The translations under genes and the position numbers were made by a program. Positions 11,456 to 32,877 of a stretch of DNA of 42,722 nt are shown piece after piece. The notes under the pieces were generated by a model. That model was not told where the DNA came from. It ran no database searches and worked only from the letters and a program-made list of their open reading frames with translations. Source of the stretch: a virus; IMG/VR virus record IMGVR_UViG_3300034407_002138, positions 1 through 42,722 of that record; one strand, given 5' to 3'. Each line of letters begins with the position of its first letter. The first letter of the stretch is position 1.

Positions 11456-11463
11456 AGTATCTC

Positions 11464-14380: not shown

Positions 14381-14401
14381 CTTACCTCTCCTATTTGCGT
14401 T

Positions 14402-14467: not shown

Positions 14468-14529
14468 GTGACCACGACACTTGCTATTGTGATGATGAGG
14501 TTGAGAGGTCGCAAGTGTCAAACTGTTCA

Positions 14530-14613: not shown

Positions 14614-14622
14614 AGTCACCTC

Positions 14623-14991: not shown

Positions 14992-15016
14992 AATAAGTAC
15001 CTCTCATTCTTACTAT

Positions 15017-15045
15017 ATAATACCACGAAATGAGGTATATGTCAA
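15017..15045 (-). promoter_or_regulatory. Sigma70-type promoter
   Basis: On the - strand TTGACA (15045-15040), exactly 17 bases, then TATTAT (15022-15017). It lies between the 2OG oxygenase stop and the 122-aa gene, in a noncoding gap of 63 bases, and gives a leader of about 20 bases with GAGAGG before the ATG. Confidence 0.85.
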
Positions 15046-15054
15046 GGGTTATTT

Positions 15055-15582
15055 TTAATAATTTTTCCCTAAAATCCACCCTACAAGACTCTTTCGAATG
15101 CCCGATTTTACTGGGTTTACACGATGCCAAAAATCTGATTTGAAGAATATTGCCTCATTTTTACCGAGACGGAATGTCGCATGTCTTAATTCTTTACTAG
15201 GATGACCGTATTCTAAGTCAAAATCACCACCCTCATAATTATCATTCAAAAGTAATGAAAATGATATTTTTCTAATACGATTATCTGCATATGGTTTTGT
15301 GTGTTGATCAATATGCCATCCATATTCTCCACCTGCCCCATACTCTGTATATTGTAGTGGTTCTATGCCATCTATTTGAAAATTCCATCCAGCTTCTTTA
15401 TTAACCAGTTTAGTATATTCTAAAAATCTATCTAATGTTGGTCTATCATTTATCCAACGTATCTCAGATATTCTTGCAGTATGACCACTACTATCATTTG
15501 TTTTTGCATCTTCTTTACTTCCACCATCTACATTTATTTTAAATGGTGGTTGTTTAATTAAATATGGTTCACCTATTCTCAT
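15055..15582 (-). CDS. 2OG-Fe(II) oxygenase (prolyl 4-hydroxylase-like)
   Basis: The 175-aa protein has the jelly-roll iron site: YGWHIDQH (His90, Asp92), distal FWHRVNP (His153) and GIRKSLVGWILG with Arg163 for 2-oxoglutarate. Between them come ISFSLLLNDNYEGGDFDLEY and a positioning strand AIFFKSD. These match the P4H-like superfamily, very common in marine T4-like phages. The substrate (protein, nucleic acid base or sugar) cannot be told. It overlaps the DUF6433-like gene by 4 bases. Confidence 0.9.
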   Translation of the reverse strand: MRIGEPYLIKQPPFKINVDGGSKEDAKTNDSSGHTARISEIRWINDRPTLDRFLEYTKLVNKEAGWNFQIDGIEPLQYTEYGAGGEYGWHIDQHTKPYADNRIRKISFSLLLNDNYEGGDFDLEYGHPSKELRHATFRLGKNEAIFFKSDFWHRVNPVKSGIRKSLVGWILGKNY

Positions 15583-16055
15583 GCTTTCGCAAATTCATCA
15601 TTCCAACCAAATGCTTCTTTTACAACTTCTTTAGATAATCCTTTGTAGATCTGATGCAACTTTTTATCTTTTGCGTTTATAACAAGTTTTGCTTCAGTTT
15701 CATGTAGACCTTCTAACAATTGTATAAACATAAGTTCTTTTTTGTATTGTGGTGTATCATTATCACCACCTTTAATATAGTGATATAATTTTTTTGCCTC
15801 TGATGCTAATCTTGTGTGTTCAGTTCCAGCAGGTGCATCGTTTGGTTTAAATGGTACATCTCCTACTGGTAGAACCCATTCTATTTTAGGATCAAATGAT
15901 GATTTAATAACCATTCTTAATGATTGGTTATCATGATATTTTAGTATTCTTACTTTTTCTTCTTTTGTTTTTGCTTTATGCACTTTGTCTAGTATTTCTG
16001 AAAATAATAATGAATTACTAGAATTCAATACTGTGCCAGGTAATGGTTTGTTCAT
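15579..16055 (-). CDS. DUF6433-like conserved phage protein
   Basis: The 158-aa protein includes KAKTKEEKVRILKYHDNQSL, VIKSSFDPKIEWVLPVGDVP, APAGTEHTRLASEAKKLYHY and ELMFIQLLEGLHETEAKLVI, then NAKDKKLHQIYKGLSKEVVK. This near-invariant block is a hallmark of a helical protein in cyanophage and pelagiphage myoviruses, which I recall as DUF6433. No catalytic function is known. It follows RNase H with a one-base overlap. Confidence 0.75.
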   Translation of the reverse strand: MNKPLPGTVLNSSNSLLFSEILDKVHKAKTKEEKVRILKYHDNQSLRMVIKSSFDPKIEWVLPVGDVPFKPNDAPAGTEHTRLASEAKKLYHYIKGGDNDTPQYKKELMFIQLLEGLHETEAKLVINAKDKKLHQIYKGLSKEVVKEAFGWNDEFAKA

Positions 16056-16903
16056 TAGAAATCTCCTATTGAGTCAGTTAGTTCTTTTAGTTTATTTTCG
16101 ATAAAGTAAGTTAACATTTTACTTCTATCGCCACATGGTGCTTCTGAAAATTCTTTGAGAATATTTGTTTGAATATCAACTGGTATACATTCTAAGTCTA
16201 TAAGATTTTTATTACGACTATAATTACGAACTACTTCATCAGTTGCCATAGTATTATCAAAGTTGCCATCTTTCCATGCTTCTATTTTCTTTTTACTAAG
16301 TGGTTTTTGTCTTAGACCTTCAACAAACACATTATCATTTGATAAAACATTCGGAATGCCATCAGACGAATCACCTTTTAATATATGTACTTTTATATAT
16401 TCGTTTGGGTCCTCACCATTTATAGTTTTTTTTAGTATAGGTGAATATTGTGATACATTAGAAAATTTTTGTAATTGAATAAAATCTTTATCACCTGAAA
16501 CTATCATAATTTTTTCATCGGGATATTTTTTTGCTAAAGTTCCTATGACATCATCTGCCTCTGCACCATGCACTTCAATTACTTTGTAAGGCAGATAATC
16601 TTTTATTTCTTGTTTTATTTTATTAAGACACTCAAAGATAGATTCCCAATCTTTACTATCTTTACTTCTGGCTTTTCTACGATTTTGTTTATAGTGTGGA
16701 AAAAAATCTCTACGCCAATAATGTTTACTATCATATGCCAAAACAATCTCACCATACTCTTCATTAAACTCTTGACGATGCATACGTATTGAATTAAGTA
16801 TCATATGACGAACCATACCAACATCAGGTTTATCCGTCTTTTCCATATTCAAATGCATCATCAAACCTGCCAATGAGATTTGATTCATATCAAGTATTAT
16901 CAT
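16055..16903 (-). CDS. rnh: RNase H (T4 Rnh-like 5'-3' exonuclease, FEN family)
   Basis: The 282-aa protein matches T4 RNase H (305 aa), which removes Okazaki primers. It has the FEN acidic residues: IILDMNQ near the start, LAYDSKHYWRRDFFPHYKQN, IEVHGAEADDVIGTLA, IMIVSGDKDFIQLQ and a GDSSDGIPNV H3TH region. The C-terminal helices are Lys-rich. Overlaps of 1-4 bases with both neighbours show an operon. Confidence is high. Confidence 0.88.
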   Translation of the reverse strand: MIILDMNQISLAGLMMHLNMEKTDKPDVGMVRHMILNSIRMHRQEFNEEYGEIVLAYDSKHYWRRDFFPHYKQNRRKARSKDSKDWESIFECLNKIKQEIKDYLPYKVIEVHGAEADDVIGTLAKKYPDEKIMIVSGDKDFIQLQKFSNVSQYSPILKKTINGEDPNEYIKVHILKGDSSDGIPNVLSNDNVFVEGLRQKPLSKKKIEAWKDGNFDNTMATDEVVRNYSRNKNLIDLECIPVDIQTNILKEFSEAPCGDRSKMLTYFIENKLKELTDSIGDF

Positions 16904-17259
16904 TTATCCTCTGTCAATTCTTTTACTTTATCTATATTAACGCTATGATACGATATATCTAAGTTATTGTCAACAGATTTTTCGGTCATAATCTTTTCAA
17001 CAAGGTCATTTAATATATGTTTGTAACCCATATCTTTATAACAGACTGCTCTGACACATTCATTTAAAAATGGTATGTACATTTTCATTGTGCCAGATGT
17101 TACATCAATACCATTCTCTTGAAAATTTGTAATCGCATTAACCACGATACTTTCTGCAAGTTCCTCTACGAACTCTATGTCTTCACGAACCCTACTATTT
17201 TCTTCTGGTGATATTGTCACCACTCTTTTCCACGGTCCTTTTATTATGTTGTCTGTCAT
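16900..17259 (-). CDS. 119-aa conserved hypothetical protein upstream of rnh
   Basis: The protein begins MTDNIIKGPWKRVVTISPEE and is mainly helical after that (DIEFVEELAESIVVNAITNF, MYIPFLNECVRAVCYKDMG). Similar proteins sit next to rnh-type genes in cyanophages, as far as I recall. It overlaps the small gene upstream by 65 bases and rnh by 4. No function is recognised. Confidence 0.65.
   Translation of the reverse strand: MTDNIIKGPWKRVVTISPEENSRVREDIEFVEELAESIVVNAITNFQENGIDVTSGTMKMYIPFLNECVRAVCYKDMGYKHILNDLVEKIMTEKSVDNNLDISYHSVNIDKVKELTEDK
16945..16973 (-). promoter_or_regulatory. Intragenic sigma70-type promoter before rnh
   Basis: Within the end of the 119-aa gene, TTGACA (16973-16968), a 17-base spacer and TATCAT (16950-16945) on the - strand point towards rnh, whose ATG is about 40 bases further. 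The exact spacing matches the other promoters of this genome, but the motif also has to code here. Confidence 0.5.
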
Positions 17260-17374
17260 TAAATTTTTCCTTCAAATCAAAAAATCGTAATACGTCTTTG
17301 ACTCTCATTGACATATTATCAGTTCTAGATTTGCGTTTTAGTTTTTCGTATTCTGCGTATTCATCAATACTCAT
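17195..17374 (-). CDS. 59-aa basic hypothetical protein
   Basis: From the ATG at 17374 the protein reads MSIDEYAEYEKLKRKSRTDN, then MSMRVKDVLRFFDLKEKFND and a basic tail. It overlaps the end of bS21 by 11 bases and the start of the 119-aa gene by 65 bases, a large overlap that lowers confidence. The charged helical composition is like neighbouring small genes. A TTG start five codons earlier is possible. Confidence 0.45.
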   Translation of the reverse strand: MSIDEYAEYEKLKRKSRTDNMSMRVKDVLRFFDLKEKFNDRQHNKRTVEKSGDNITRRK

Positions 17375-17606
17375 GTTCCATTTGTGCAACTTTTTTTAAC
17401 CACCTTTTTTTACCTGCTTTTTTAGCAAGTCTTTTTTTCTCTGATGGCTTTTGAAAAAACTGTCGTTCTTTTATTTCTTGTAGAATCCCAGCATTCTTAA
17501 CCATTCTTTTTAACTTCCTCATGGCCTTGTCAACATTATTGTCTTTAACAATAACATGAAGACCTTCAGTCCTTTCAAAGTTTGGTTTCTTTCTATATTG
17601 TTTCAA
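17364..17606 (-). CDS. rpsU: Ribosomal protein bS21
   Basis: The 80-aa basic protein contains the bS21 core: LHVIVKDNNVDKAMRKLKRM, VKNAGILQEIKERQFFQKPS and EKKRLAKKAGKKRWLKKVA. bS21 binds the 30S platform near the anti-Shine-Dalgarno helix and helps start-site selection. Phage copies are known from marine phages including pelagiphages and are thought to exchange with the host protein. The ATG has a weak site (GGAGTAAAC upstream). A few extra residues precede the core compared with bacterial bS21. Confidence 0.92.
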   Translation of the reverse strand: MKQYRKKPNFERTEGLHVIVKDNNVDKAMRKLKRMVKNAGILQEIKERQFFQKPSEKKRLAKKAGKKRWLKKVAQMEHEY

Positions 17607-17621
17607 GTTTACTCCTTTATT

Positions 17622-17732
17622 TTATTTAGTTGATAAAACTGAAAATATTACAGACAACCATTCAAAGACTGTTCCGTAATCTACTAAAGTTAGTAGGGCA
17701 CCTATTGCCATCCAAAATAATGCTCTTAACAT
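17622..17732 (-). CDS. 36-aa membrane micropeptide
   Basis: Translation of the gap before bS21 gives MLRALFWMAIGALLTLVDYG then TVFEWLSVIFSVLSTK: two short hydrophobic stretches with an acidic residue between. It starts 2 bases after the upstream gene's stop and ends 16 bases before bS21. No clear ribosome site is present; support is position and an intact hydrophobic frame. Confidence 0.45.
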   Translation of the reverse strand: MLRALFWMAIGALLTLVDYGTVFEWLSVIFSVLSTK

Positions 17733-17734
17733 TT

Positions 17735-18160
17735 TTATATTGGCCCACAAAATTGACCATTCTCATAGAACGGTGACATTTCTTCTGTAAATTCAGGTAA
17801 GAAGTCATATTTAAAAAACTGTCTACCATTATATGATTGACAATAATCATAGTAAAAATCAGAATCACTATAAGGTGTATCTTCATTTCCAAACTCATCA
17901 TTGTAAGTATGATAATATTCAGAACCATGTATCATTTCTACACCAGATACACCTGTAAAATTACTTACATCTTCTTTGTAATTTTTATCACAAAATATTT
18001 TAATCTTGTCATGTAATTTAGAAGACGACAATCTATCAAGTTGTGATAAAGGTGCGTTTCTAAAAATTGTATAATAAGTTTTGAAATAAGGATCATACTT
18101 TTCAGAATCATCCTTATATTCTCGCCAATAAACTAAATGTAATGTTCCTTGTTTACTCAA
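17735..18160 (-). CDS. 141-aa hypothetical Tyr/Asp-rich protein
   Basis: The protein is acidic and rich in Tyr, Phe and Asp (EKYDPYFKTYYTIFRNAPL, SEYYHTYNDEFGNEDTPYSD, SDFYYDYCQSYNGRQFFKYD). No motif or family was recognised. It starts immediately after the upstream gene's stop. The composition suggests a compact protein-binding domain; some anti-host inhibitors are acidic like this, but nothing specific supports that. Confidence 0.6.
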   Translation of the reverse strand: MSKQGTLHLVYWREYKDDSEKYDPYFKTYYTIFRNAPLSQLDRLSSSKLHDKIKIFCDKNYKEDVSNFTGVSGVEMIHGSEYYHTYNDEFGNEDTPYSDSDFYYDYCQSYNGRQFFKYDFLPEFTEEMSPFYENGQFCGPI

Positions 18161-18421
18161 TTATGCATACTCCTTATCAAATAAGTTAACTGCGATTTTC
18201 TCAGCAGTCGGCATATGGTGATAACCGATACTGCATTTGAAAAAGTAATCACTAATAAATTCTTTTGCAAGAACTAAGTGATCCTCTGAAATACGTCCAT
18301 TTCTTAGACGTACAATCACATGACCGTCATCATGAACAACTTTAACTTTTCCACGTTGTTCAGGTCTTCCGGCACCCCAATGTGCGACAATTTGGTCACC
18401 TTTTTTGATTTCTATAGACAT
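18161..18421 (-). CDS. 86-aa hypothetical protein with SH3/KOW-like strand region
   Basis: From the ATG at 18421 (GAGAGG eight bases upstream) it reads MSIEIKKGDQIVAHWGAGRP, QRGKVKVVHDDGHVIVRLRN, then GRISEDHLVLAKEFI and a helical end. The KGDQIVAH...GKVKVVHDDGHVIVRL run resembles an SH3/KOW-type beta barrel used for binding RNA or protein. In-frame ATGs at 18445 and 18436 would extend it. It has its own upstream promoter. Confidence 0.6.
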   Translation of the reverse strand: MSIEIKKGDQIVAHWGAGRPEQRGKVKVVHDDGHVIVRLRNGRISEDHLVLAKEFISDYFFKCSIGYHHMPTAEKIAVNLFDKEYA

Positions 18422-18453
18422 TTGATTACCTCTCATTTTGTTCATCTATTATC

Positions 18454-18483
18454 AGAATAACAGGTATTTGACCATATTGTCAA
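18454..18483 (-). promoter_or_regulatory. Sigma70-type promoter candidate
   Basis: On the - strand TTGACA (18483-18478) is followed after 17-18 bases by TTATTC/TATTCT (18460-18454). It lies in the noncoding gap 18446-18540 upstream of the 86-aa gene. The -35 is perfect, the -10 imperfect. Confidence 0.6.
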
Positions 18484-18540
18484 GGGTTAATTTGGGTTAA
18501 AAAATGCCCGAAAAATAAGGATTTTTTGATATCTAGGGGG

Positions 18541-18681
18541 TTATTTTCCCTGTCCTCGATACTTTTTAAACGATCTTCTCTTGTTTTTATTCATGGATGA
18601 CATCTTTAGATTTCTGCGTCCTTGAGATGTCTTTTTATTGACAGGTTCGTATGCTGTGTTTGTTTGTATCATTCTTGCCAT
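18541..18681 (-). CDS. 46-aa basic phage protein
   Basis: The small protein MARMIQTNTAYEPVNKKTSQ, then GRRNLKMSSMNKNKRRSFKK and YRGQGK is very basic, and its closing NKNKRRSFKKYRGQG matches a small protein I recall from many cyanophage genomes. GGAAATACT precedes the ATG. It follows the adenylate cyclase stop by 10 bases. It probably binds nucleic acid; function is unknown. Confidence 0.65.
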   Translation of the reverse strand: MARMIQTNTAYEPVNKKTSQGRRNLKMSSMNKNKRRSFKKYRGQGK

Positions 18682-18691
18682 AGTATTTCCT

Positions 18692-20530
18692 TCACATCAC
18701 TGGTTTGTAAATAGTGATTAATTCTTCCTTTCCTTTTACTTTAATCTTATCAACTTCTATTGATTTGATGTTCGTAAGTTGTTCTTTTGTATAAGATGAG
18801 TAAAGTGTTGATACAACCTTACCATTCTTATCTTTGTAGTTCCTAGTTTGAGCCTCTAATCGTGCAGCCAAATTAACAGCATCACCAATTACAGAATAAT
18901 CAAATCTAGTGTCACTTCCCATATTACCAACAATGCAAGTGCCTGTATTGACACCTGATCCTATATTGATTTCTGGTAAACCTTTTTTCTTAAATTCTTC
19001 TTTTAGTTTTTCAGTTTCAATCGCACATTCAATACTTGTCTTGACTGCCATCTCAGCATGATTTGGGCATTCTAATGGTGCATTCCAAAATGCCATAATA
19101 CAATCACCCATGTATTTGTCCACTGTTCCACCATTATCTAAAACAATTTTTGTCATACGATTTAAATAATCATTAATAACTTCTACTAAACCTTCTGGGT
19201 CATCATTGTTTTTGTAATATTCAGATATTGGTGTAAACCCTACAATATCCATAAACAGAAATGACATCTCTTTTCTTTCACCACCAAGTTTTAATTTACT
19301 AGGGTCTTTTTGTAGTATTGCAACTTGTCGTGGATCTAAGTATGTTTCAAATTGTTTTCGTATTTGTTGTTTTAAATTAAATTCTAAAATAAAACGATTG
19401 AATATGCTGTGCAATCCAACAAATAAAATTGTAATTAAAATCCATGTGATATCGAATAGTAAAAGATATTCTTGAAAGATTACGGCACAATGTATTATTA
19501 ATATAAGAACACCTGAAACCATTGTAAAGGCAACCCAAGGGTATGATGTAAATCTTGTAAGAACAATAATGATTGCTCCTAAGACAAATGCTATAATTGT
19601 CTCTATCAACCAATCAACTCGTCCAACAGATTCACCACTAAGTACTGTATCTAATGTAGATGCCGATAAAATATAATCATATTGTTCACCATTAGGTGTT
19701 GCAATGATGCCACCTAAACCTTCTGCTGTCATTCCTACAATAACTGTACGACCTGCAAATTTTGTAAAATCATTTTCACTTGCTGATATTGTTTCATAAT
19801 CTTTATTCCAACGCAACCATATTCTTCCATTTACATCAGTTTTGATTGGGGAAAACCCAGGCACTCTTAATGCCTCAACTCCAAATTGATTTGCTTTTAC
19901 TTGATAACTTGGTTGTCCTGTTGCAACACGAATGACTTCAATTGCCATTTGTGGATAAGTTTCCTCTCCGATTCTCATTATTAAAGGAACTCGTCTAACT
20001 ACACCATCTAATTCTGGTGCAGTATTAATCACTCCAACTCCGTCTGCAACTTGTAATTTAGGAATAGGTCCTAACATTCCTGGCCATTCAAAAAGATAAG
20101 GAATGGGATTACCGACTTTTGCAACTCCTCTTGGAACTGTATTCTTATTAGTTTGTGTAGTTCCTACTTGAGCAATAACAACTCCCATGTTAGTTAATGA
20201 TTGTGCAAACGCATCATCACCACCTAAACGATCAGGTTCTGAAAAAAGTATTGGCATCATAATGATACCGACACCTGATTCTCGTAATTTGTAAATTAAA
20301 TCTGCAAGAATATCTCTTTTCCACGGCCATTGTCCATATTTTTGTATTGATGCTTCATCAATAGTAACGATTCCAATATTTTCAGAGATTGTTTTTTCTT
20401 CAGATTGAAACAATAAATCGAATGATTTAAGTTTAAGAATTTCTTTAATTTGAGGATTTTGTAGTCCTAAAAATGTAATTAAGACTAATGTAACAAATGC
20501 AAACGTCCAATGAGTAATTATTTTTTTCAT
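18692..20530 (-). CDS. CHASE2-domain class III adenylate cyclase
   Basis: The 612-aa protein starts with a membrane helix (about 8-24), then a periplasmic CHASE2 sensor (about 35-300, with IGIVTIDEASIQKYGQWPWK and a D-G-V-V-R-R-V-P motif), three membrane helices (about 308-375) and a class III cyclase domain (about 415-600). Catalytic residues are all there: FLFMDIVGF (Asp428), DKYMGD (Lys472, Asp476), DYSVIGDAVNLAARLEA (Asp544, Asn553, Arg557). The Lys/Asp pair predicts ATP, so it should make cAMP. It is the last gene of the curli-like operon, its ATG overlapping the previous stop (TAATG). CHASE2 cyclases often sit next to FecR proteins in bacteria, as here. A full-length membrane cyclase is very rare in a phage. 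Confidence 0.93.
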   Translation of the reverse strand: MKKIITHWTFAFVTLVLITFLGLQNPQIKEILKLKSFDLLFQSEEKTISENIGIVTIDEASIQKYGQWPWKRDILADLIYKLRESGVGIIMMPILFSEPDRLGGDDAFAQSLTNMGVVIAQVGTTQTNKNTVPRGVAKVGNPIPYLFEWPGMLGPIPKLQVADGVGVINTAPELDGVVRRVPLIMRIGEETYPQMAIEVIRVATGQPSYQVKANQFGVEALRVPGFSPIKTDVNGRIWLRWNKDYETISASENDFTKFAGRTVIVGMTAEGLGGIIATPNGEQYDYILSASTLDTVLSGESVGRVDWLIETIIAFVLGAIIIVLTRFTSYPWVAFTMVSGVLILIIHCAVIFQEYLLLFDITWILITILFVGLHSIFNRFILEFNLKQQIRKQFETYLDPRQVAILQKDPSKLKLGGERKEMSFLFMDIVGFTPISEYYKNNDDPEGLVEVINDYLNRMTKIVLDNGGTVDKYMGDCIMAFWNAPLECPNHAEMAVKTSIECAIETEKLKEEFKKKGLPEINIGSGVNTGTCIVGNMGSDTRFDYSVIGDAVNLAARLEAQTRNYKDKNGKVVSTLYSSYTKEQLTNIKSIEVDKIKVKGKEELITIYKPVM

Positions 20531-20730
20531 TAAATATAAATATCAGGTTCTTTTTCTACACAAAATGCTCTGATATTAGTTCCTGTTTCAATAAATCTTC
20601 TATTAAATCCATTTTGATATATCAGACATTGTTTCATAGTAGGCATTTCTATTATAGGTAGTTTATCAAAAAAGGCCCATTTTTCTGTTTCATAATTAAA
20701 AACCATAGCAATTAAAAATATTTTTATCAT
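20530..20730 (-). CDS. 66-aa hypothetical protein between curlin and cyclase
   Basis: The protein opens with a short hydrophobic stretch (MIKIFLIAMVFNYET), then KWAFFDKLPIIEMPTMKQCL and two Cys in a charged C-terminus. It could be exported with a weak signal sequence and form one disulphide. Start and stop overlap both neighbours (ATGA and TAATG), so it is part of the operon. No family was recognised; a role in fibre or cyclase function is suggested only by position. Confidence 0.6.
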   Translation of the reverse strand: MIKIFLIAMVFNYETEKWAFFDKLPIIEMPTMKQCLIYQNGFNRRFIETGTNIRAFCVEKEPDIYI

Positions 20731-21668
20731 TGTTGTGTCACACTTATACTACATCCACCTACTGTTTGACAGTTTTGAGATAATGAATATGTACCATCAG
20801 TTGTTGTATTATTTGTTCCCATAGTCAAATCTAAATCCGTTCCGTAAGTTCCACTTAAAGTGATTATAGCAGATTGTGAACCACCTGATTTTCTTTGGTA
20901 AATATCTACATCATTATAATCATTATTCACAGTTAGAGATAACGATTTATCATTATTATGTTCTTGTTTAATAAAGATATTATTGTTATCACCATAAATG
21001 TAAGAATAATTAGTATGTTCAGTTAAATTATTATTTGCTCTTTGACTTGCAATATAACTGTTATTATCACCAGAAATATAAACATTCATATAATGTCCAC
21101 CATGTTCTTGATAATCATAACTAAAAACACCTGTGCTTGAAACATCATAACCTTGTGCCATTATTATTTCATTGTCATTTGCAACTACGTTTAATATCAT
21201 TATGTCTTGGTCGCAAGTTGAATATGAACAGATTTGTTTTGCTATTACATCATTGTTATCATAATCAATTTCTAAATCCATGCTTGCGTTTTGATGAATT
21301 TGTGACGCTGTGAAATTATTATTATCACCGTGATTATCTAAGTACATGACAAGATTATCACCTGTTTGTGTAGCAGTCATATTACTTGCAGTTTGATTAT
21401 CAGAACCATAATAGTGTTTGTATAGACCAATCTTATTATTATCGCCTGTTTGTGTAAAATTGATTGTTTGATTTTTACCCACTAAAGTAGCATTTGAGGC
21501 TGCTGTGCTTTTTGTAGAAACTCTATTGTTTTCACCGTCTTGCGTTATAGTTATTGTAGGATTATTACCAACTTGACTTATGTAAATTTCGTTTGCATTT
21601 GCGTACTTTATAGTTTGCACACTTAAAAAAACTATACTAACGCTGATAAATATCGACATTATTGACAC
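20727..21668 (-). CDS. Curlin-repeat (CsgA/CsgB-like) secreted protein 1
   Basis: The 313-aa protein has a signal peptide (to about residue 25, ending YANA) and then repeats of the curlin type, with Q-x-G-x-N-N and alternating I/V/T: YISQVGNNPTITITQDGENN, INFTQTGDNNKIGL, TATQTGDNLVMYL, YISGDNNSYIASQ, YIYGDNNNIFIKQ. Such repeats fold into stacked beta-strand-turn units that form amyloid fibres. The GTG at 21668 has AGGAG six bases upstream; ATG at 21659 is an alternative. The repeats are more divergent and longer than in E. coli CsgA (151 aa). Two Cys pairs (ICSYSTC, NCQTVGGC) are unusual for curlins. Confidence 0.82.
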   Translation of the reverse strand: MSIMSIFISVSIVFLSVQTIKYANANEIYISQVGNNPTITITQDGENNRVSTKSTAASNATLVGKNQTINFTQTGDNNKIGLYKHYYGSDNQTASNMTATQTGDNLVMYLDNHGDNNNFTASQIHQNASMDLEIDYDNNDVIAKQICSYSTCDQDIMILNVVANDNEIIMAQGYDVSSTGVFSYDYQEHGGHYMNVYISGDNNSYIASQRANNNLTEHTNYSYIYGDNNNIFIKQEHNNDKSLSLTVNNDYNDVDIYQRKSGGSQSAIITLSGTYGTDLDLTMGTNNTTTDGTYSLSQNCQTVGGCSISVTQQ

Positions 21669-22755
21669 TGCCTTCTCCTACGATAAATTCTCTGATTTGT
21701 ATATCAGTTTGTTCTAAATTAATTTCATATTGTGATCTTTTACTTAACACGATACGAACAAAATTGTTTGGACCTTGTCTTGAAAAAATAAAATTTCTAC
21801 CATCATCGACAACAATAACGCCATTTTCAAGTTGACCTGTTTTTTGTTTTTTCTCAACAAAAACATCCGTCAATTCAGACAAAAATTCTTGAGCCAGTAT
21901 TTTATTTATCTGATCTAAAATATCTGCTAAAAAATCTTGTTTGAGGAAATCAATATCCAATTCTGTAAATTCTTCATCCTCTGAAGTTGTTGCTAATAAA
22001 TCTTCATTCAGTGCATCTATTTCTAAAAAATCAATATCTAAAACATTGGCACGTTTCTTTGCTTCTTCTTTTGCTTCTAAATCATCAATCTCTCTTGGTG
22101 GTGATAATATAAGTAAATTGGAAATCATACTTTCATCAATATCCACAGAAATAGGTTTGAATGGTTTTGTTTCTGGCGCTTCTACTCTTGTTGCTTGAAA
22201 TGCTTGATTCATTATAACTTGACCTGCATCAGATTCAACAGATATTTCACCAACAAAACAATTACCATTTGTATCACAACTTGGTAATAAGATAATAGTT
22301 GATCCACCAATCTCATCAACAATCATCGCAAAGTCTGTACCACGAACACCGATGGTTGCTGTTGGTGTTTGTATTTTTACATTATCTCTGTAATCTTTTG
22401 CAATTTGACCAGATGCATATTTGACTGTTCCTAAAGCAGCAGTTAAAGAAAGTCCACCTTTTTTGTTTGCTGGATCATAGATAAATTCATCTATGATTAA
22501 TTTTGAATGTTCAGTAATTTCAACTGTGGTGTCATCAACGAAAGTAATTCCTGTTCTTCCGTTCCCTGTCTTGACTTCATCATAAGAAAAAACATCTAAC
22601 TCCTTTTGAAGTTGGAGTTCGCCACCGTCTGTTCTTTTGATAACACCTTTACCTTTAAGATCGGTTACATTTCCAATACTGGCATCTATACTGTTAGAGT
22701 AAAGTAACAGAAATAGAAAATACAATACTGAAAGTATTGAAATCCATTTAGTCAC
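21637..22755 (-). CDS. FecR-domain periplasmic protein with curlin-like C-terminus
   Basis: The 372-aa protein starts with a signal or anchor (WISILSVLYFLFLLLYSNSI), then a FecR domain (roughly residues 30-155): IGNVTDLKGKGVIKRTDGGE, TGNGRTGITFVDDTTVEITE, SKLIIDEF and TPTATIGVRGTDFAMIVD. The middle (about 200-300) is acidic and helical. The end shows curlin-like pieces: SRQGPNNFVRI and SVNNVDIYQR. FecR domains are periplasmic sensors or scaffolds; pairing with CHASE2 cyclases is known in bacteria. The start is uncertain: GTG at 22755 or 22785, neither with a good site. It overlaps both curlin genes. Confidence 0.82.
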   Translation of the reverse strand: MTKWISILSVLYFLFLLLYSNSIDASIGNVTDLKGKGVIKRTDGGELQLQKELDVFSYDEVKTGNGRTGITFVDDTTVEITEHSKLIIDEFIYDPANKKGGLSLTAALGTVKYASGQIAKDYRDNVKIQTPTATIGVRGTDFAMIVDEIGGSTIILLPSCDTNGNCFVGEISVESDAGQVIMNQAFQATRVEAPETKPFKPISVDIDESMISNLLILSPPREIDDLEAKEEAKKRANVLDIDFLEIDALNEDLLATTSEDEEFTELDIDFLKQDFLADILDQINKILAQEFLSELTDVFVEKKQKTGQLENGVIVVDDGRNFIFSRQGPNNFVRIVLSKRSQYEINLEQTDIQIREFIVGEGSVNNVDIYQR

Positions 22756-23458
22756 TTTGTGTAATATCAATATCAAAATCGTCACCTGTTACATCTAAAT
22801 CTATGTTATTATCATACACGCCAGACTGCGTAATGTCAAGGGTTCCACCACCACCTGTAATATCTACAAGTATCGTGTGTCCGTTTACATCACCATTTCC
22901 GTCAACATCAATATTCATCGCAACGCCCTCATCTGAGTTTGTCGAATTTGTTGATAATGATGATGAATTGTCAACTGTTACAGTAACAGAAGCACTTTGG
23001 CCATCTACATCAACATTCGTTACATTGTGATCACCTGTTAATGTAAATGATACAGTAGAACCATCTGCGTCTGCAACTTCACCTATATCAAAATCAAATG
23101 TGTTATCATCACCTGATGTAGTAATGTTTAATGTGACATTATCACAATTACCTGATGATGTCGAACTACACAATAAGTCCACAGTATTTGAATCACCTGT
23201 AAATGACCAAGTTCCTGTATATGAACTTCCTTTAATTATCGCATCTATTGTATTTGTATTACCTGTTTGTGTAATACTAAATGTCATATTATCACCATTT
23301 AAAGTCATGTCTGTTGTTGAATCACCAATCTCGTTATTCTGTCCGTCTTGTACGATGTCCAAATCAAGATTGTCACCAACCTGTTCTATATAAATATCAT
23401 TTGCGTAAATTGACCCACAAAACAACGTCAATAATAAAATTAACGTCTTGTTTATCAT
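22748..23458 (-). CDS. Curlin-repeat (CsgA/CsgB-like) secreted protein 2
   Basis: The 236-aa protein has a signal peptide (MINKTLILLLTLFCGSIYA), then curlin-type repeats: IYIEQVGDNLDLDIVQDGQN, MTFSITQTGNTNTIDAIIK, LDITQSGVYDNNIDLDV and a final FDIDITQSD. It is very acidic and rich in Asp, Asn, Thr, Ser and Gly, with one Cys pair (LLCSSTSSGNC). AAGGAG lies eight bases before the ATG. Together with protein 1 it may form a two-subunit fibre (major plus nucleator), as CsgA/CsgB; which is which cannot be told. Confidence 0.82.
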   Translation of the reverse strand: MINKTLILLLTLFCGSIYANDIYIEQVGDNLDLDIVQDGQNNEIGDSTTDMTLNGDNMTFSITQTGNTNTIDAIIKGSSYTGTWSFTGDSNTVDLLCSSTSSGNCDNVTLNITTSGDDNTFDFDIGEVADADGSTVSFTLTGDHNVTNVDVDGQSASVTVTVDNSSSLSTNSTNSDEGVAMNIDVDGNGDVNGHTILVDITGGGGTLDITQSGVYDNNIDLDVTGDDFDIDITQSD

Positions 23459-23462
23459 TTAT

Positions 23463-24230
23463 TTACTCCTTATATTTCCAAACTTCCTTATCTACTCCTT
23501 GTCCTATTAATTCCATAATACCTTGTTCTATAGCAGCTCTCACTGCATAGTTAACAGGTTCATTCGTTGCAACACCTGTTTCCACTTCGACAGCAGTAGT
23601 TCCCATATCTACAAATCGAAATACATCGGCACTTGTAGCATGAGATGCAATAGTTTTTTCTGTCGCAACTGTTAGTAATACTTCACCAGTTGAAACACTA
23701 ACTACCCTCATTGACACAGTAACATTATCAACTTTATATTGTTGAGTGGCACCAATACCCAAATATCGAGCACCTGCTCCTCCACTTACTATATTGGAAT
23801 CATATCCAATAATTCCACCCTCAATAATCAATCCAGCAAATAACAATGGTTTTAATTGTTTATCGCCTTCTTCATATTGTTCACGTGTTGAACGAATCAA
23901 TTGTCGTTCTTTAATTAAATTATCTAAACCACTTCTTTCAACAACTTTAAACCAAGTACCATTACCAACCTCTTGAAGTGTTTGTATTACCCAAACTTCA
24001 GCACCTTGTGTCACTGCGGTACTTAGTTGACTAAACTTTTCACTTGGTTTTCTTTGACCTGTTTTATCAAAGAAAGTATAAACTGCAACTGTGATCGGCG
24101 GTCCGTCTAATTGTGGTACTGCCTGTAAATCTAAAACTGATTGTGAAACCTTTGGTGGTTCATAATCAAATGTCTTAGGTCCTGTTACACAACCTGTTAA
24201 GAGAAAGAATACAAGTAACCATTTAATCAT
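23463..24230 (-). CDS. csgG: Curli secretion pore CsgG
   Basis: The 255-aa lipoprotein has signal peptide and lipobox LLTGC (Cys14), then the CsgG fold: PPITVAVYTFFDKTGQRKPS, TAVTQGAEVWVIQTL, WFKVVERSGLDNLIKERQLI and the membrane-barrel/turn region LIIEGGIIGYDSNIVSGGAG followed by VSMRVVSVSTGEVLLTVATE. CsgG forms a nonameric outer membrane pore for curli subunits. Length is close to E. coli CsgG (277 aa). Start overlaps the csgF stop (TAATG). Confidence 0.92.
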   Translation of the reverse strand: MIKWLLVFFLLTGCVTGPKTFDYEPPKVSQSVLDLQAVPQLDGPPITVAVYTFFDKTGQRKPSEKFSQLSTAVTQGAEVWVIQTLQEVGNGTWFKVVERSGLDNLIKERQLIRSTREQYEEGDKQLKPLLFAGLIIEGGIIGYDSNIVSGGAGARYLGIGATQQYKVDNVTVSMRVVSVSTGEVLLTVATEKTIASHATSADVFRFVDMGTTAVEVETGVATNEPVNYAVRAAIEQGIMELIGQGVDKEVWKYKE

Positions 24231-24667
24231 TAAAACCCAAAATCACCAATTGGAACTGTTACAGTTGTCACGGTACCATCTTCTTCAGTCACTCTAATCA
24301 TAATAGTTCCTAAGTCGGTATCCTTTTCCCAATAGATTTCTGCTCCTTCAATCTCTGCTGTTCCTGTATTAGCGCCATCTTCAGCGAACATATTATCAAC
24401 TAATTGTTTTGATAAATTCGCATAGATACGTGATTCTAAGTTTGCAAGAAAACGATTTACTGTTTCGTTTTCTTCTTCTCGTTTGGCATCACGTTCTGCC
24501 GCTTCAATATCATCTTTTATCTGTTCTTTTCTCGTAAACTGTAATTGTTCTATTGATAGAACATGAGATGAGTATCCTTGACCAGAAAAACTAGGATTAT
24601 TAAAATCATGTACTAGTTCGCTGGCCGACACAGAAACACAAAAAAACAGTATAAATAACGTTCTCAT
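24230..24667 (-). CDS. csgF: Curli assembly factor CsgF
   Basis: The 145-aa protein has a signal peptide (MRTLFILFFCVSVSASE) and the CsgF N-terminus that plugs the CsgG pore: LVHDFNNPSFSGQGYSSHVL, then SIEQLQFTRKEQIKDDIEA, a charged helix and a C-terminal beta region ending PIGDFGF. Length matches E. coli CsgF (138 aa). It is directly followed by csgG, the usual csgF-csgG order. No ribosome site is obvious before the ATG. Confidence 0.88.
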   Translation of the reverse strand: MRTLFILFFCVSVSASELVHDFNNPSFSGQGYSSHVLSIEQLQFTRKEQIKDDIEAAERDAKREEENETVNRFLANLESRIYANLSKQLVDNMFAEDGANTGTAEIEGAEIYWEKDTDLGTIMIRVTEEDGTVTTVTVPIGDFGF

Positions 24668-24674
24668 AACGTTT

Positions 24675-24932
24675 CTATTTATCTGTTTTGTCTTCTTTAT
24701 CCTCGTTTTCTCGCATTTCTAGTGCAGTATTCAGTTTAGAACGTAGTCTAATAATGTCATTATCTAACATTCTGACCCTATCGATAAGAGCTATCAACAC
24801 TTTCATTGTGTTATCTAACTTTTCAATGATTTGTGTTGTCACATAATTGTAAATAAAGTAGATAAAATAACCCATGGCAACAGCTGCCAATGTTGCGAAA
24901 CCATATTGTTCAAGTATTTGTAAAACGTCCAT
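24675..24932 (-). CDS. Membrane/coiled-coil protein, paralog of the next gene
   Basis: The 85-aa protein has one membrane helix (about residues 12-32: FATLAAVAMGYFIYFIYNYV) followed by a coiled coil (IEKLDNTMKVLIALIDRVRM, LDNDIIRLRSKL) and a charged tail. It is clearly homologous to the 93-aa gene just upstream. The layout is that of BhlA/UviB-type holin-like proteins. Its stop lies 7 bases before csgF, so it may belong to the curli operon. Start and previous stop overlap (TAATG). Confidence 0.65.
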   Translation of the reverse strand: MDVLQILEQYGFATLAAVAMGYFIYFIYNYVTTQIIEKLDNTMKVLIALIDRVRMLDNDIIRLRSKLNTALEMRENEDKEDKTDK

Positions 24933-25213
24933 TAGTCCTTTCGTGCATCTTCCTTACCATCAGATCGTGATAATCTATCTAAATCTGGTTTGAGATGTAA
25001 TGCATGAGATACTAATAAATCTAATTTAATCATATCATGATTCATTGTCTTGATACGATTATCTAATTGTGCAATGATACCTGTAATTGTTTTTACTTGA
25101 TCAACAACACCTGCTAAAATATACTTTAGGATGATGTAAATGAATAATCCCATTGTGATTGCAGCCGCAACAGGTAAACCAAACTGTGTAAGTATTTGAA
25201 AGAATAAATCCAT
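24932..25213 (-). CDS. Membrane/coiled-coil protein, first of tandem pair
   Basis: The 93-aa protein reads MDLFFQILTQFGLPVAAAIT, MGLFIYIILKYILAGVVDQV, then a coiled coil TGIIAQLDNRIKTMNHDMIK and a charged tail. The pattern (short amphipathic start, G-rich turn, one membrane helix, coiled coil) repeats in the next gene, so the pair arose by tandem duplication. BhlA-like holin or an inner-membrane partner for the curli genes are both possible. Confidence 0.65.
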   Translation of the reverse strand: MDLFFQILTQFGLPVAAAITMGLFIYIILKYILAGVVDQVKTITGIIAQLDNRIKTMNHDMIKLDLLVSHALHLKPDLDRLSRSDGKEDARKD

Positions 25214-25224
25214 GTTACTATATA

Positions 25225-25953
25225 TTAGTATCCACCTCGTTTAACAATTTGTAAAATTGCCGAATCCCAACAATCATAATAATTCAAACCAGTTGCACTT
25301 TCAAATCTTTCTATGAAAACATTTTGTAAATCATAATCTTTATTATCTTTTGGCCAATTAGATTTCATAACAAATGTTGGAGGCATGAGTTCAATTGTTC
25401 CTGTAAGTTCTATCATTTCTTGTACGAAGTTTTGTTCACCTCCAACAATTCTTGTAGAACCTGCATCTTCATGCAAAGCATAATATTCTCTAAAATATTC
25501 ATAGTGTTTATTATAGACTTTTGGAATATATTTAAAATCATGTGAATTAAATTTGTAAAATGTTCCACACATTCTACATACATCATTATCTTTTTTCCAC
25601 CATCTATCTACTGATAATAATGTTTTCTTTTTTACATGATGTTGAACTATATCAGTTGGATTTTTATTCCATATCATATCTAAGTCAGACACAATTGTTT
25701 GATCAGTTCTACTGGCACCAATAAATTTTGGATCAAAAAACTGTAACTTCTTCCAATGTGTATGAACTTTAACATCATCTTTATCATAATTAATATTATT
25801 AATATATGGAATATCTACAGGTTTGTCAGTAAGTAAATGAAACTTTATATCAAGACAACTATCATGAACAGGTTCTGTGATATTTTCAAGTAGTTCTTCA
25901 ACGTTTTGATAATGACACTCATTACCATATTTAACAATACAATAATGTATCAA
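25225..25953 (-). CDS. GT-A type glycosyltransferase-like protein
   Basis: The 242-aa protein has IVSDLDMIW (Asp90-x-Asp92), the DxD metal/nucleotide-sugar motif, preceded by a strand/helix layout typical of GT-A enzymes, and later GGEQNFVQEMIE in the acceptor region. No ATG is available; the TTG at 25953 with GAGG upstream is taken as start and overlaps the PIG-L gene by 23 bases. It groups with deacetylase and methyltransferase genes, suggesting sugar modification. Confidence 0.6.
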   Translation of the reverse strand: MIHYCIVKYGNECHYQNVEELLENITEPVHDSCLDIKFHLLTDKPVDIPYINNINYDKDDVKVHTHWKKLQFFDPKFIGASRTDQTIVSDLDMIWNKNPTDIVQHHVKKKTLLSVDRWWKKDNDVCRMCGTFYKFNSHDFKYIPKVYNKHYEYFREYYALHEDAGSTRIVGGEQNFVQEMIELTGTIELMPPTFVMKSNWPKDNKDYDLQNVFIERFESATGLNYYDCWDSAILQIVKRGGY

Positions 25954-26536
25954 CTTTAAATACCTCAGCGTGTTTTACATGTACAAATGATCCTCGATAT
26001 CTAGACATGCTATCGATCCCTATGTAATATTCATCTGGCACATTATCATACAGTGATATTGCGTCTAGTTTCTTAAATTTGTATCTTGTAATATCTACAA
26101 ATAAGTTTGCTTCAAAACTTTTATATTTTTGACAATAGGGATATGCATTCATATACCATACATCAAGTTGTTGTTTTCTTCTTAATGAATTACCTAATTC
26201 ATGACAAAATCTGTGATCTTGATGCCAATCTTCACTCCAATGTGTAATTAGTAAATCATATGATTCTACGTCAACTTTTTTTTCTATCTCTGAGATGACG
26301 TTACTTGTCGGCGATTCATCCCTATGATTTAAATATATTGGACTGTATCCTAAAATTTTTGATGATGATGCAACATATTTTTTATGTTTTACGTTTGAAC
26401 ATAAAATAATGTTATCTACTTTAGTTCCTTCATCTACAAACTTTGCGACTGTTCCACCACATGATATTTCTAAATCATCGGGGTGTGCCGATAATACAAG
26501 TATTTTAGAATAATGTTTCAAGATATAATTCCTCAT
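25931..26536 (-). CDS. PIG-L/LmbE-family deacetylase
   Basis: The 201-aa protein has the zinc motif LVLSAHPDDLEISCGGTVAK (His18, Asp21) and the distal HWSEDWHQDHRFCHELGNSL with the third His. These are the PIG-L motifs for removing N-acetyl groups from GlcNAc-type sugars. The ATG at 26536 overlaps the methyltransferase gene by 32 bases. Close in-frame TTG is an alternative start. The likely target is a host or phage-made sugar. Confidence 0.86.
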   Translation of the reverse strand: MRNYILKHYSKILVLSAHPDDLEISCGGTVAKFVDEGTKVDNIILCSNVKHKKYVASSSKILGYSPIYLNHRDESPTSNVISEIEKKVDVESYDLLITHWSEDWHQDHRFCHELGNSLRRKQQLDVWYMNAYPYCQKYKSFEANLFVDITRYKFKKLDAISLYDNVPDEYYIGIDSMSRYRGSFVHVKHAEVFKVDTLLYC

Positions 26537-27053
26537 TCAATATAGAATAGTTTTCAAACTTTCCTGTTAATAACACATGTGAATAAACCTTTTTAGGCGC
26601 ATTTTTATTAATTATCTCTTCCCACCACTCTATTGGTTTAGTGGTACAATGAGCATTTTCCCCATTAGGTAGAACTGCCATCGCAGGGTCGGTAGCGATT
26701 GCAAAGAAAACAAACTTGTTTGCTCTTTCATAAATTTGTTCAATAACACCAGGTACTTCGATTTCCGGTATATGTTCCATGACATCACAACAAAAAACAC
26801 CATCATATTGTTTATTTGGAAGTTCAGAGTATTCTTCAATCGCAGGGTCATATAAGTCTGGCATCATTCCAAACTTTTCTGCAAGATTTACTTTTTTATA
26901 GATTTTTGCTTTTCCACAACCAAAGTCTAATAATGACTGTGATTTTGTATCATCAATCAGACCTTTTATTTGATTATAATAAGATAGGATCATCTGGCCA
27001 TCGCCATACTTTCCGTCTAATTTATGATATATTTTGTATTGTTCTATTGTCAC
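26505..27053 (-). CDS. SAM-dependent methyltransferase
   Basis: The 182-aa protein has motif I SQSLLDFGCGKAKIYKK (near 40-52), LYDPAIEEY at the end of strand 2, and motif IV-like YDGVFCCDVMEHIPE. It starts with GTG at 27053, overlapping the coiled-coil gene (GTGA). Type 11/12 methyltransferases of this size often act on small molecules or sugars. Its PIG-L and glycosyltransferase neighbours support a sugar role. Confidence 0.8.
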   Translation of the reverse strand: MTIEQYKIYHKLDGKYGDGQMILSYYNQIKGLIDDTKSQSLLDFGCGKAKIYKKVNLAEKFGMMPDLYDPAIEEYSELPNKQYDGVFCCDVMEHIPEIEVPGVIEQIYERANKFVFFAIATDPAMAVLPNGENAHCTTKPIEWWEEIINKNAPKKVYSHVLLTGKFENYSILNEELYLETLF

Positions 27054-27214
27054 TTACTTAACCATCTTTTCACACTATCAATAGGATTACGTAATCCTTC
27101 ATAAGTATTATCTATAAACTTTATATGTTTGTCAAGAGTTTTTGTTAGATGATCTATTTTTTTTTCTAGATTATCTAGTCTCTTTTCAATCTTATCTAAT
27201 TTATCATTCATCAT
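27050..27214 (-). CDS. 54-aa coiled-coil protein
   Basis: Translation gives MMNDKLDKIEKRLDNLEKKI, then DHLTKTLDKHIKFIDNTYEG and a basic-aromatic end KRWLSK. The first half is an almost perfect leucine/isoleucine heptad coil. It overlaps the preceding nuclease gene (11 bases) and the methyltransferase start (4 bases). Length is too short for a standalone enzyme; a small dimeric adaptor is likely. Confidence 0.6.
   Translation of the reverse strand: MMNDKLDKIEKRLDNLEKKIDHLTKTLDKHIKFIDNTYEGLRNPIDSVKRWLSK
27107..27135 (-). promoter_or_regulatory. Intragenic sigma70-type promoter candidate
   Basis: On the - strand TTGACA (27135-27130), 17 bases, GATAAT (27112-27107), inside the 54-aa coiled-coil gene and pointing to the methyltransferase/PIG-L/glycosyltransferase genes and possibly the curli operon. 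The spacing is exact, but the bases also code. Confidence 0.45.
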
Positions 27215-27563
27215 TTAAAACGTCATGCGTCCAATCTTCATATATTTTTACAAAATGTTCAGCATCAACGACAACTAAAGGTCTGTGATTATTTTTTTTC
27301 ATAACAACAATAGGTTCATAGTCTTTAGAGTTTTCTTTTGCTTGTTTGTATGCTTCCCACACATTTAACTTTTCAACATTTTTACATTCAATACTATATG
27401 GAAAATGATGTCTTGCAGATCTTGACATAATCAAATCCTCACCACCTGCACCCATGCTCCTAGATTCTATATCTTCAGAATGAATATTTAATTTTTCAAT
27501 CAGTAAATCACGAAACCATTGTTGTAATCTACGACCTTTTGCTTTGGCCGATTGTGTTTTCAT
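27204..27563 (-). CDS. PD-(D/E)XK nuclease, Holliday-junction-resolvase-like
   Basis: The 119-aa protein has a basic start (KAKGRRLQQWFRDLLIEKLN), then SMGAGGEDLIMS (Glu42-Asp43) and YSIECKNVEKLNVWEAYKQA (Glu59, Lys61), the PD-(D/E)XK core with its following helix. Size and pattern match small archaeal/phage resolvase-like nucleases. It overlaps the zinc ribbon gene (ATGA). A role in DNA branch processing before packaging is plausible. Confidence 0.75.
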   Translation of the reverse strand: MKTQSAKAKGRRLQQWFRDLLIEKLNIHSEDIESRSMGAGGEDLIMSRSARHHFPYSIECKNVEKLNVWEAYKQAKENSKDYEPIVVMKKNNHRPLVVVDAEHFVKIYEDWTHDVLNDE

Positions 27564-27709
27564 TCATCAACTTCCTCTTCATAATATTCTTCATTATCTT
27601 GTTGGGAACCACAGAATGGACAATATTCTATTGGATAATAGTTCTCGTCCATGCTGTGCTTTATCTCATATGTAGCTTCGCATTCTTCACATAAGATTCT
27701 TGTTTTCAT
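27560..27709 (-). CDS. 49-aa zinc-ribbon protein
   Basis: The small acidic protein has two CxxC pairs: ILCEECEATYEI and EYCPFCGSQQ, a rubredoxin-like zinc ribbon, with an acidic tail (EEYYEEEVDE). Its ATG overlaps the nrdB stop (TAATG) and its stop overlaps the nuclease start (ATGA), so it is coupled to both. It may be a transcription or recombination accessory factor; nothing more is visible. Confidence 0.7.
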   Translation of the reverse strand: MKTRILCEECEATYEIKHSMDENYYPIEYCPFCGSQQDNEEYYEEEVDE

Positions 27710-29022
27710 TAGAATAGTTCCTGTTGTTTCTTTTCTTCTTCAAGTACACATGTACCTTCATCATGGTTACAATTTAAATGAGCATTTGGATCATCGTATG
27801 CAACTTGCCACTCACCTGTCAAACCTGCAACTTCATATTCAGTTACACGATTCTCAAAGAAGTTTGTGTGATCGGCTGCATTTAAAATCCACTCTAACCA
27901 TGGAATTGGATTATCTTTTACTTTGAAGTTTGTTTTTAGACCGAGTTGTAATAATCGTCTGTCTGCAATATAACGAATATATTGTTTTACATCTTCTTTA
28001 GTTAAACCTTCTGGTTCACCCATTCCGTATGCTAAGTCAATAAAGTTATCTTCAAGTTCTACAATTTTTCTAGACATCTCATAGATTTCTTTTTTCAATT
28101 CATTATCTACGATTGCCGCATTTTCTGAACAGAATGCTCTGAATAAGTGAGCAATACCTTCTACGTGCATTGATTCATCTCTTACTGACCATTCTACGAT
28201 TTTACCACATCCTTTCATCTTACCGAATCTTTGGAAGTTTAGTAACATCACAAAAGATGCAAACAATGAAATACCCTCGTTAAATACTGATTTAGCAAGT
28301 GCTAACGCCATGCCTTTCTTTGTACTTACGTTAGAATTCATCATGAAGTCAACTTTGTCTGCCATCTCTTGATATTCTAGAAATGCATGAAACTCTTCAT
28401 CAGGTAATCCTAAAGTTTCATTCAATAATGCATATGCTCTTTGATGTATTCCTTCTCTTGAAGCAAATGATCCAAGCATATTTCTTATCTCATTATTTTT
28501 AAATTTAGGTAGGAACTGATCGTAATAGTTTTGACCAACTGCAACATCTGATTGTGTGAAAAGTCTAAGAACATGTGTGACATAGTCTTTTTCAACTTCG
28601 GTCATCTTTCCACCTTTCCAATCAGTTACATCTTCAGATAAATCAACTTCGTCTTCGATCCAATGCACCTTTTCATGTTTTTGTACAAACTCGACAGCCC
28701 AAGGATAATAAAATGGCTTGTAAGTTTCAGAGAACTTGTATAGTCCACCACCACGTTTTTTTAGAATCTTTTCTGAACTATCTAACAGTTGAGCATATCC
28801 ACCGATTCTTTCACCATTAACAAAGATTTGAGGAACAGACATAATTGAACTTGCTTTACTACCAAGTCTTTCTTCAACATTATTCACTCTTTGAAAAAAT
28901 TCAAATTTTTCCTCTTCATTCACTAAGGAATGTTCGGTATATTCGATACCATGTTCCTTAAACCAATTTTTTGCATTTAAGCAATAGCCACATGTTGGCG
29001 TTGAGTATATTTGTACGTCCAT
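27709..29022 (-). CDS. nrdB: Glutaredoxin-NrdB fusion (class Ia RNR beta subunit)
   Basis: The 437-aa protein begins with a glutaredoxin (about 1-80; VQIYSTPTCGYCLNAK with Cys11/Cys14, SVPQIFVNGERIGGYAQL) fused to ribonucleotide reductase R2. The R2 part has a ferritin-like helix bundle with ASREGIHQRAYALL, VFNEGISLFASFVMLLNF and WSVRDESMHVEGIAHLFRAF carrying di-iron ligands. The C-terminus ends in an acidic/aromatic tail that binds NrdA. The fusion brings the reductant next to the enzyme. AAGGAG is seven bases before the ATG. It is coupled to the zinc ribbon and follows nrdA by 12 bases. Confidence 0.93.
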   Translation of the reverse strand: MDVQIYSTPTCGYCLNAKNWFKEHGIEYTEHSLVNEEEKFEFFQRVNNVEERLGSKASSIMSVPQIFVNGERIGGYAQLLDSSEKILKKRGGGLYKFSETYKPFYYPWAVEFVQKHEKVHWIEDEVDLSEDVTDWKGGKMTEVEKDYVTHVLRLFTQSDVAVGQNYYDQFLPKFKNNEIRNMLGSFASREGIHQRAYALLNETLGLPDEEFHAFLEYQEMADKVDFMMNSNVSTKKGMALALAKSVFNEGISLFASFVMLLNFQRFGKMKGCGKIVEWSVRDESMHVEGIAHLFRAFCSENAAIVDNELKKEIYEMSRKIVELEDNFIDLAYGMGEPEGLTKEDVKQYIRYIADRRLLQLGLKTNFKVKDNPIPWLEWILNAADHTNFFENRVTEYEVAGLTGEWQVAYDDPNAHLNCNHDEGTCVLEEEKKQQELF

Positions 29023-29034
29023 TTCTTTCTCCTT

Positions 29035-32869: not shown

Positions 32870-32877
32870 TACAACAT

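Follow-up and report, generated by a model that had tools for sequence, protein, structure and literature searches.

A curlin-like C-terminal tail on the FecR-domain protein of a phage curli operon

Organisation of the operon and of the FecR-domain protein

The window, by which we mean the whole stretch of DNA that was analysed, is a viral record, linear and 42,722 bases long (positions 1..42,722). Its minus strand carries a curli operon in which two small membrane proteins are followed in order by CsgF, CsgG, curlin 2, a FecR-domain protein, curlin 1, a 66-aa ORF and a CHASE2 cyclase.

24675..24932 and 24932..25213, minus strand: two small membrane proteins (phrog_18771), upstream of CsgF, recurring in related loci
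24230..24667, minus strand: CsgF, pore accessory factor (PF10614, E 6.4e-17)
23463..24230, minus strand: CsgG, outer-membrane secretion pore (PF03783, E 4e-56)
22748..23458, minus strand: curlin 2, the upstream fibre protein, C-terminus DIDITQSD (Curlin_rpt, E 0.0011, slightly below the cut-off)
21637..22755, minus strand: FecR-domain protein with a curlin-like C-terminal tail, 372 aa (ORF, GTG start at 22755)
20727..21668, minus strand: curlin 1, the downstream fibre protein, containing NDVDIYQR (Curlin_rpt, E 0.001, slightly below the cut-off)
18692..20530, minus strand: CHASE2-adenylate/guanylate cyclase (PF05226, E 3.7e-44; PF00211, E 6e-18)

The FecR ORF shares 8 nt with the end of curlin 2; at its own end it shares 32 nt with curlin 1, counted from the curlin 1 GTG at 21668. 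A sequence search of the PDB gave no credible match for either curlin. The two phrog_18771 proteins (24675-25213) belong to one family, which is conserved ahead of CsgF in phage curli operons.

The FecR and curli passages of Zaragoza-Solas 2020 (PMC7029224), Buchholz 2022 (PMC9004378) and Wittmers 2022 (PMC9599517) describe a phage curli operon and make no mention of curlin-like repeats in FecR. In these passages Wittmers et al. set out a pelagiphage T8SS/curli operon of the order CsgF-CsgG-CsgA/B-FecR-CsgA/B-adenylate cyclase, with FecR taken as an iron-dependent regulator, and fibre genes are reported missing in the corresponding passages of PMC7029224 and PMC9004378. The window operon has CsgF, CsgG, curlin, FecR and cyclase in the conserved order of the phage T8SS operon of Wittmers et al., and shares its gene set and order with the pelagiphage T8SS operon (HTVC008M, Melnitz); the FecR homologues are 56% identical in Pelagibacter phage HTVC008M and 48% in the Methylophilales phages Melnitz. 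The operon is already known, and the role of FecR within it has been attributed to iron. Counting in each case the phage loci with enough flank for the gene in question, CsgG accompanies FecR in 177 of 177 loci and CsgF in 171 of 172, and a curlin lies immediately upstream of FecR in 217 of 218.

The FecR protein matches PF04773 (E 2.4e-9; 38 bits against a gathering cut-off of 24), as do 36/36 homologues, and belongs to phrog_37870 (E 2.5e-125). No lipobox is present in its signal peptide. Its parts, together with a regulatory site of the next gene that lies within its codons, are as follows.

22681..22755, minus strand: signal peptide, residues 1-25, VTKWISILSVLYFLFLLLYSNSIDA (from sequence; model helix 3-22; hydrophobic N-terminus across alignment A1)
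22201..22683, minus strand: FecR domain, residues 25-185 (Pfam match 59-153; structural matches of the model)
21838..22200, minus strand: acidic, partly helical linker, residues 186-306 (low pLDDT; helices 222-238 and 275-298; conserved L/D/F columns)
21640..21819, minus strand: curlin-like tail of six short strands, residues 313-372 (AlphaFold2 model of the tail only; alignment A3)
21778..21798, minus strand: repeat 1 motif a, degenerate, RNFIFSR, residues 320-326, followed by the XGXX arc QGPN (R326 almost invariant)
21745..21765, minus strand: repeat 1 motif b, NFVRIVL, residues 331-337 (L337 invariant in alignment A1)
21709..21729, minus strand: repeat 2 motif a, YEINLEQ, residues 343-349 (Q349 invariant in A3)
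21643..21663, minus strand: terminal half-repeat NNVDIYQ, residues 365-371, a canonical curlin motif a (Q371 invariant, V367 and I369, which are I73 and I75 of A3, almost so)
21675..21679, minus strand: AGGAG, likely ribosome-binding site of curlin 1, within the FecR codons for the conserved G-E-G arc (taggagaaggca followed by GTG)

The linker carries two LDIDFL-type motifs, and at least two such motifs are found by a loose pattern in 148 of 238 family proteins; they are a possible binding site. The arrangement of the ribosome-binding site recurs in many loci where the two genes overlap by 29 nt (L017, L023, L028, L048, L051).

Sequence and conservation of the C-terminal tail

Sleutel et al. 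2023 define the curlin repeat by N-$-psi-$-psi-$-Q motifs, an XGXX arc and a length of 23 +/- 5 aa, with half-repeats allowed at the ends (PMC10192328). The FecR protein terminates in ...NFIFSRQGPNNFVRIVLSKRSQYEINLEQTDIQIREFIVGEGSVNNVDIYQR and then a stop, with a single R after NNVDIYQ as its last residue. In agreement with the original prediction, SRQGPNNFVRI and SVNNVDIYQR both lie at the FecR C-terminus, within the last ~55-60 residues, and the second closely resembles curlin 1, since NNVDIYQR of FecR and NDVDIYQR of curlin 1 are identical at 7/8 residues. Compared with the defined curlin motif, NNVDIYQ is canonical, YEINLEQ has its N replaced and RNFIFSR is degenerate, and the Q is conserved. 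The residues at the Q position, R326, Q349 and Q371, are spaced by 23 and 22, so that the repeat length of 22-23 in the window FecR falls within the defined range. The codons for NNVDIYQR and NDVDIYQR differ at 6/24 DNA positions, which places the likeness at the level of the protein rather than of a recent DNA copy, and disfavours duplication of the DVDIYQR codons. Scored against a matrix built from the neighbouring curlins, the three Q-strands of the window tail reach 25.5 bits, a value attained by none of 3000 shuffled tails (mean -6.7, SD 6.8, a statistic that ignores kinship), with the best register chosen in observed and shuffled tails alike. Most relatives score below the window in the same scan, mainly because their first strand is without Q.

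It had been considered that the similarity might be limited to this genome, but it proved to be family-wide. Among 234 distinct FecR proteins drawn from 534 loci, which are related sequences so that the counts are not independent trials, 231 have a C-terminal end of the form phi-x-phi-x-Q, and 225 have a previous Q/M strand 21-24 residues upstream. Exceptions include one FecR gene with an apparent frameshift (L069) and one apparently truncated protein (L591). As a control, 2/543 other ORFs of the same loci end in phi-x-phi-x-Q and 0/543 have both strands. The curlin-like ORFs of these loci often show the ending with both strands, and the pattern is there common to FecR and curlins only. Q349 and Q371 are invariant in 36 homologues and are the only invariant columns in the 70 non-redundant tails of alignment A3, in which identity to the window tail falls to as little as 9%. 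Comparison of repeats across homologues, which had been proposed as a check, thus upheld the general pattern N-x-phi-x-phi-x-Q with a period of 21-23 residues, whereas the literal likeness to NNVDIYQR is confined to close relatives.

Curlin homologues of the FecR tail were sought in Pfam, among PDB sequences and by profile-profile comparison, with negative or weak results. No FecR member lies above the cut-off of PF07012 (Curlin_rpt) and 1/70 tails matches it, at E 2; the window's own curlins are also just below this cut-off. Profile-profile similarity between the FecR tail and curlin 1 is weak (E 0.03), and HMMs built from curlin tails give a strongly shifted distribution of FecR scores in which the individual scores are weak. 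Because these Pfam results are negative, the profile and HMM scores are weak and the evidence from fold set out below is mixed, we describe the FecR tail as curlin-like and do not class FecR as a member of the curlin family.

Fold of the tail and possible roles of FecR

In the model of full-length FecR the tail is poor (pLDDT 46-73). AlphaFold2 prediction of the tail alone, from 70 sequences, gave a small beta domain (pLDDT 90.3, pTM 0.79) with strands at 19-23, 27-33, 38-44, 48-55, 58-65 and 70-76 of the 78 residues modelled (plus 294 in FecR numbering), joined by loops of 2-4 residues. The structural neighbours of this model (Foldseek, VIA) are antiparallel sheets, for example fatty-acid-binding proteins, with Z <=3.1 among the matches listed, and no solenoid is among the neighbours listed. 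None of the Foldseek matches of the tail to PDB and viral models was significant, and the matches listed contain no curli entry, an absence that is not proof. As to the beta-arch structure that had been expected of the C-terminus alone, the model gives confident beta strands, but its neighbours are antiparallel and do not show an arch. Covariation among 212 tails (Neff 73) did not separate an arch from a hairpin. Between the last two Q strands it favours parallel pairing in register, at a separation of 22 (p 4e-4, uncorrected), which counts for a curlin-like arrangement; between the first two strands it favours a hairpin-like pairing (p 1e-4), which counts against it.

The curlin-like tail suggests that FecR ties the fibre to the envelope of the infected cell and to a signalling enzyme. 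The FecR protein may well anchor or nucleate curli at the envelope, docking the fibre and signalling to the cyclase, a reading that we hold tentatively, at not quite even confidence. In terms of the export, anchoring, docking, nucleation and signalling that we infer, FecR would be a two-part adaptor, exported via Sec by means of its putative signal peptide, with its FecR/RIN-like domain retained in the cell envelope as the anchor. From this domain the acidic linker of ~120 residues would lead to a tail of about 2.5 degenerate curlin repeats with an exposed terminal half-repeat, which could serve as a matching end strand for the stacking of curlin 1 and/or curlin 2. The tail would then nucleate or tether the phage curli fibre at the CsgG-CsgF pore, in the manner of CsgB in E. 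coli. The FecR domain may contact the periplasmic CHASE2 domain of the cyclase whose gene lies downstream, and docking of the fibre, or strain upon it, could alter cAMP in the infected cell. CsgB, the minor curlin and nucleator of E. coli, similarly has curlin motifs, a degenerate terminal repeat and a proposed role as a surface-tethered template. In contrast, CsgB consists entirely of repeats, about five of which form the mature protein, and has no FecR domain, whereas FecR has ~2.5 repeats that follow a FecR domain and a linker (PMC10192328). Against this role of FecR as anchor or nucleator stand the antiparallel neighbours of the tail model, the hairpin-like covariation, the PF07012 result, the weak profile-profile similarity and the weak individual HMM scores, as do some freshwater and jumbo-phage loci, 25 of 195, with no obvious curlin directly 3' of FecR; a search of the literature found no experimental work on these proteins. 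A curlin-like tail so widely conserved among the homologues would tie FecR directly to the fibre and suggests a route from the state of the fibre to the cAMP of the cell. The tail also bears on whether these phages make real fibres, which the earlier papers, having found no CsgA/CsgB, left open or doubted.

It is also conceivable, though somewhat unlikely, that the tail forms an antiparallel beta domain complete in itself and that FecR works with the CHASE2 cyclase in the periplasm, outside the fibre; the likeness to curlin would then be convergent, or would go back to a remote ancestor with the fold having changed since. The confident model of the tail alone with its short loops, the antiparallel sheets that are its neighbours, covariation on the outer face between strands 320-327 and 331-338, and the lack of a Pfam curlin match would all be accommodated in this way. 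However, the sole invariant residues are two Q spaced by one curlin turn, only curlins share the C-terminal pattern, and virtually every phage locus with this FecR family has curli genes as well.

A further alternative is that the secretion apparatus, be it CsgG, CsgF or a periplasmic factor, recognises the terminal Q-strand as a signal; FecR would then be a substrate of CsgG or a regulator of the pore, perhaps in replacement of CsgE. The ending phi-x-phi-x-Q, or a variant close to it, is found in most of the exported proteins of these operons (FecR, both curlins and the adhesin-curlin fusions), and the phage operons in the relevant passages of PMC9599517 are without CsgE. Yet the CsgG signal of E. 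coli is N-terminal (N22; PMC10192328), and any curlin repeat ends in a Q-strand, so that a shared signal is unnecessary as an explanation; we regard this alternative as unlikely.

The relatives of the FecR domain bear on its possible role as an anchor and on the published attribution to iron. The domain model resembles the FecR signalling domains of PupR and other proteins (Z 12.5-13.5; PupR 6ovk Z 13.5, 4m0n Z 12.7), and its N-terminal part (model 24-119) has a fold like that of RIN in the LapA-type retention modules, matching the RIN of the MpAFP adhesin 5ix9 with Z 8.1, rmsd 2.2 and 28% identity over 74/76 residues; 5ix9 was also matched by sequence profile (E 0.01). The window protein is unmatched by NCBIfam NF033682 (retention_LapA) at E 0.01, and one cellular relative matches this family weakly (E 6e-5, below the cut-off). 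The phage operon differs from LapA-type systems in having neither a type I secretion system nor a giant adhesin. The best alphaproteobacterial FecR-domain matches are N-terminal parts of long, adhesin-like proteins, several of which carry cadherin-like, Ig-like, Calx-beta or RTX repeats. The Pfam name FecR, the structural match to anti-sigma regulator domains and the speculation on iron in the FecR passages of PMC9599517 speak for the iron-dependent operon regulator of Wittmers et al. 2022. This is in contrast to the protein itself, in which a cytoplasmic anti-sigma part ahead of a TM helix is absent and the signal-type residues 1-25 lead straight into the exported domain, and to the operon, where none of the nine proteins scanned is a sigma factor or TonB-dependent receptor; FecR domains are, moreover, widespread in surface proteins. 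The signal-type start, the lack of an anti-sigma part and the occurrence of cellular FecR domains as heads of surface proteins favour an anchor in the envelope or at the surface, and leave iron regulation very improbable. Finally, the curlin likeness can hardly be a by-product of the overlap of reading frames between the FecR end and the curlin 1 start. The final FecR codons do lie over the part of curlin 1 that encodes its signal sequence, and the FecR arc codons hold the likely ribosome-binding site of curlin 1. But loci in which the overlap with the next gene is 1 nt, 4 nt or nil (L004, L007, L022, L043) have the same tail, so that the overlap does not force it, and Q349 is outside the overlap.

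The linked CHASE2 cyclase and the gene downstream of FecR

A CHASE2 cyclase is linked to FecR in 98/104 phage loci with enough flank, and among the matches listed a FecR-domain gene lies <=5 kb from a CHASE2 gene in at least 31 alphaproteobacterial genomes. Since the two genes neighbour each other both in phage loci and in these cellular genomes, a link from FecR to the cyclase is plausible. In Burkholderiales/Burkholderia an operon of FecR and a CHASE2 kinase, 'BiofilmReg', has been tied to biofilm (PMC5192318). There, as in the phage operon, an exported FecR protein is encoded beside a CHASE2 transmembrane signalling protein, but it carries LysM rather than a curlin tail, the CHASE2 protein is a histidine kinase rather than a cyclase, and the operon has no curli genes (PMC5192318). 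The occurrence of FecR-CHASE2 neighbours in alphaproteobacteria and Burkholderiales makes this look like an older cellular pair that phages combined with curli. In three cellular alphaproteobacterial curli loci with CsgG and curlin-like genes (L289, L290, L292) neither FecR nor the cyclase was found near CsgG, and the Rhodobacteraceae-bin contigs with both CsgG and FecR are phage-like. In loci L602-L613 and other alphaproteobacterial genomes the FecR domain heads long cadherin/Ig/RTX-repeat proteins, in open frames of up to about 6,900 aa that often adjoin a CHASE2 gene, which suggests a wider adhesin-sensing pair of FecR and CHASE2.

We also entertain, as an unlikely extension of the anchor or nucleator role, a phage amyloid sensor in which the FecR terminal half-repeat would template curli growth, fibre occupancy would be passed through CHASE2 to cAMP, and the neighbouring gene would swap adhesin heads. 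If true, this would amount to a complete, regulated and retargetable adhesion organelle on the infected cell.

FecR with the terminal Q-strand is also found in very large phage contigs (loci L300-L378, IMG/VR, up to 364 kb), where it is diverged (38-50% identity) and where several loci are without an obvious curlin directly downstream. The gene directly after FecR is modular (window 20727-21668; L004, L006, L007, L010, L022, L028, L033, L047, L072). In related backgrounds this slot holds a plain curlin, a short curlin-like protein of 112-121 aa, or a fusion of 417-495 aa in which an N-terminal head is joined to C-terminal curlin repeats. The head in L010 is a PA14 domain (PF07691, E 3.6e-9), and other heads occur elsewhere. 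The slot genes of L004 and L006 share a signal peptide and differ in sequence right after it. Judged from the sequences, it is as if the slot exchanged adhesin heads on a fibre subunit.
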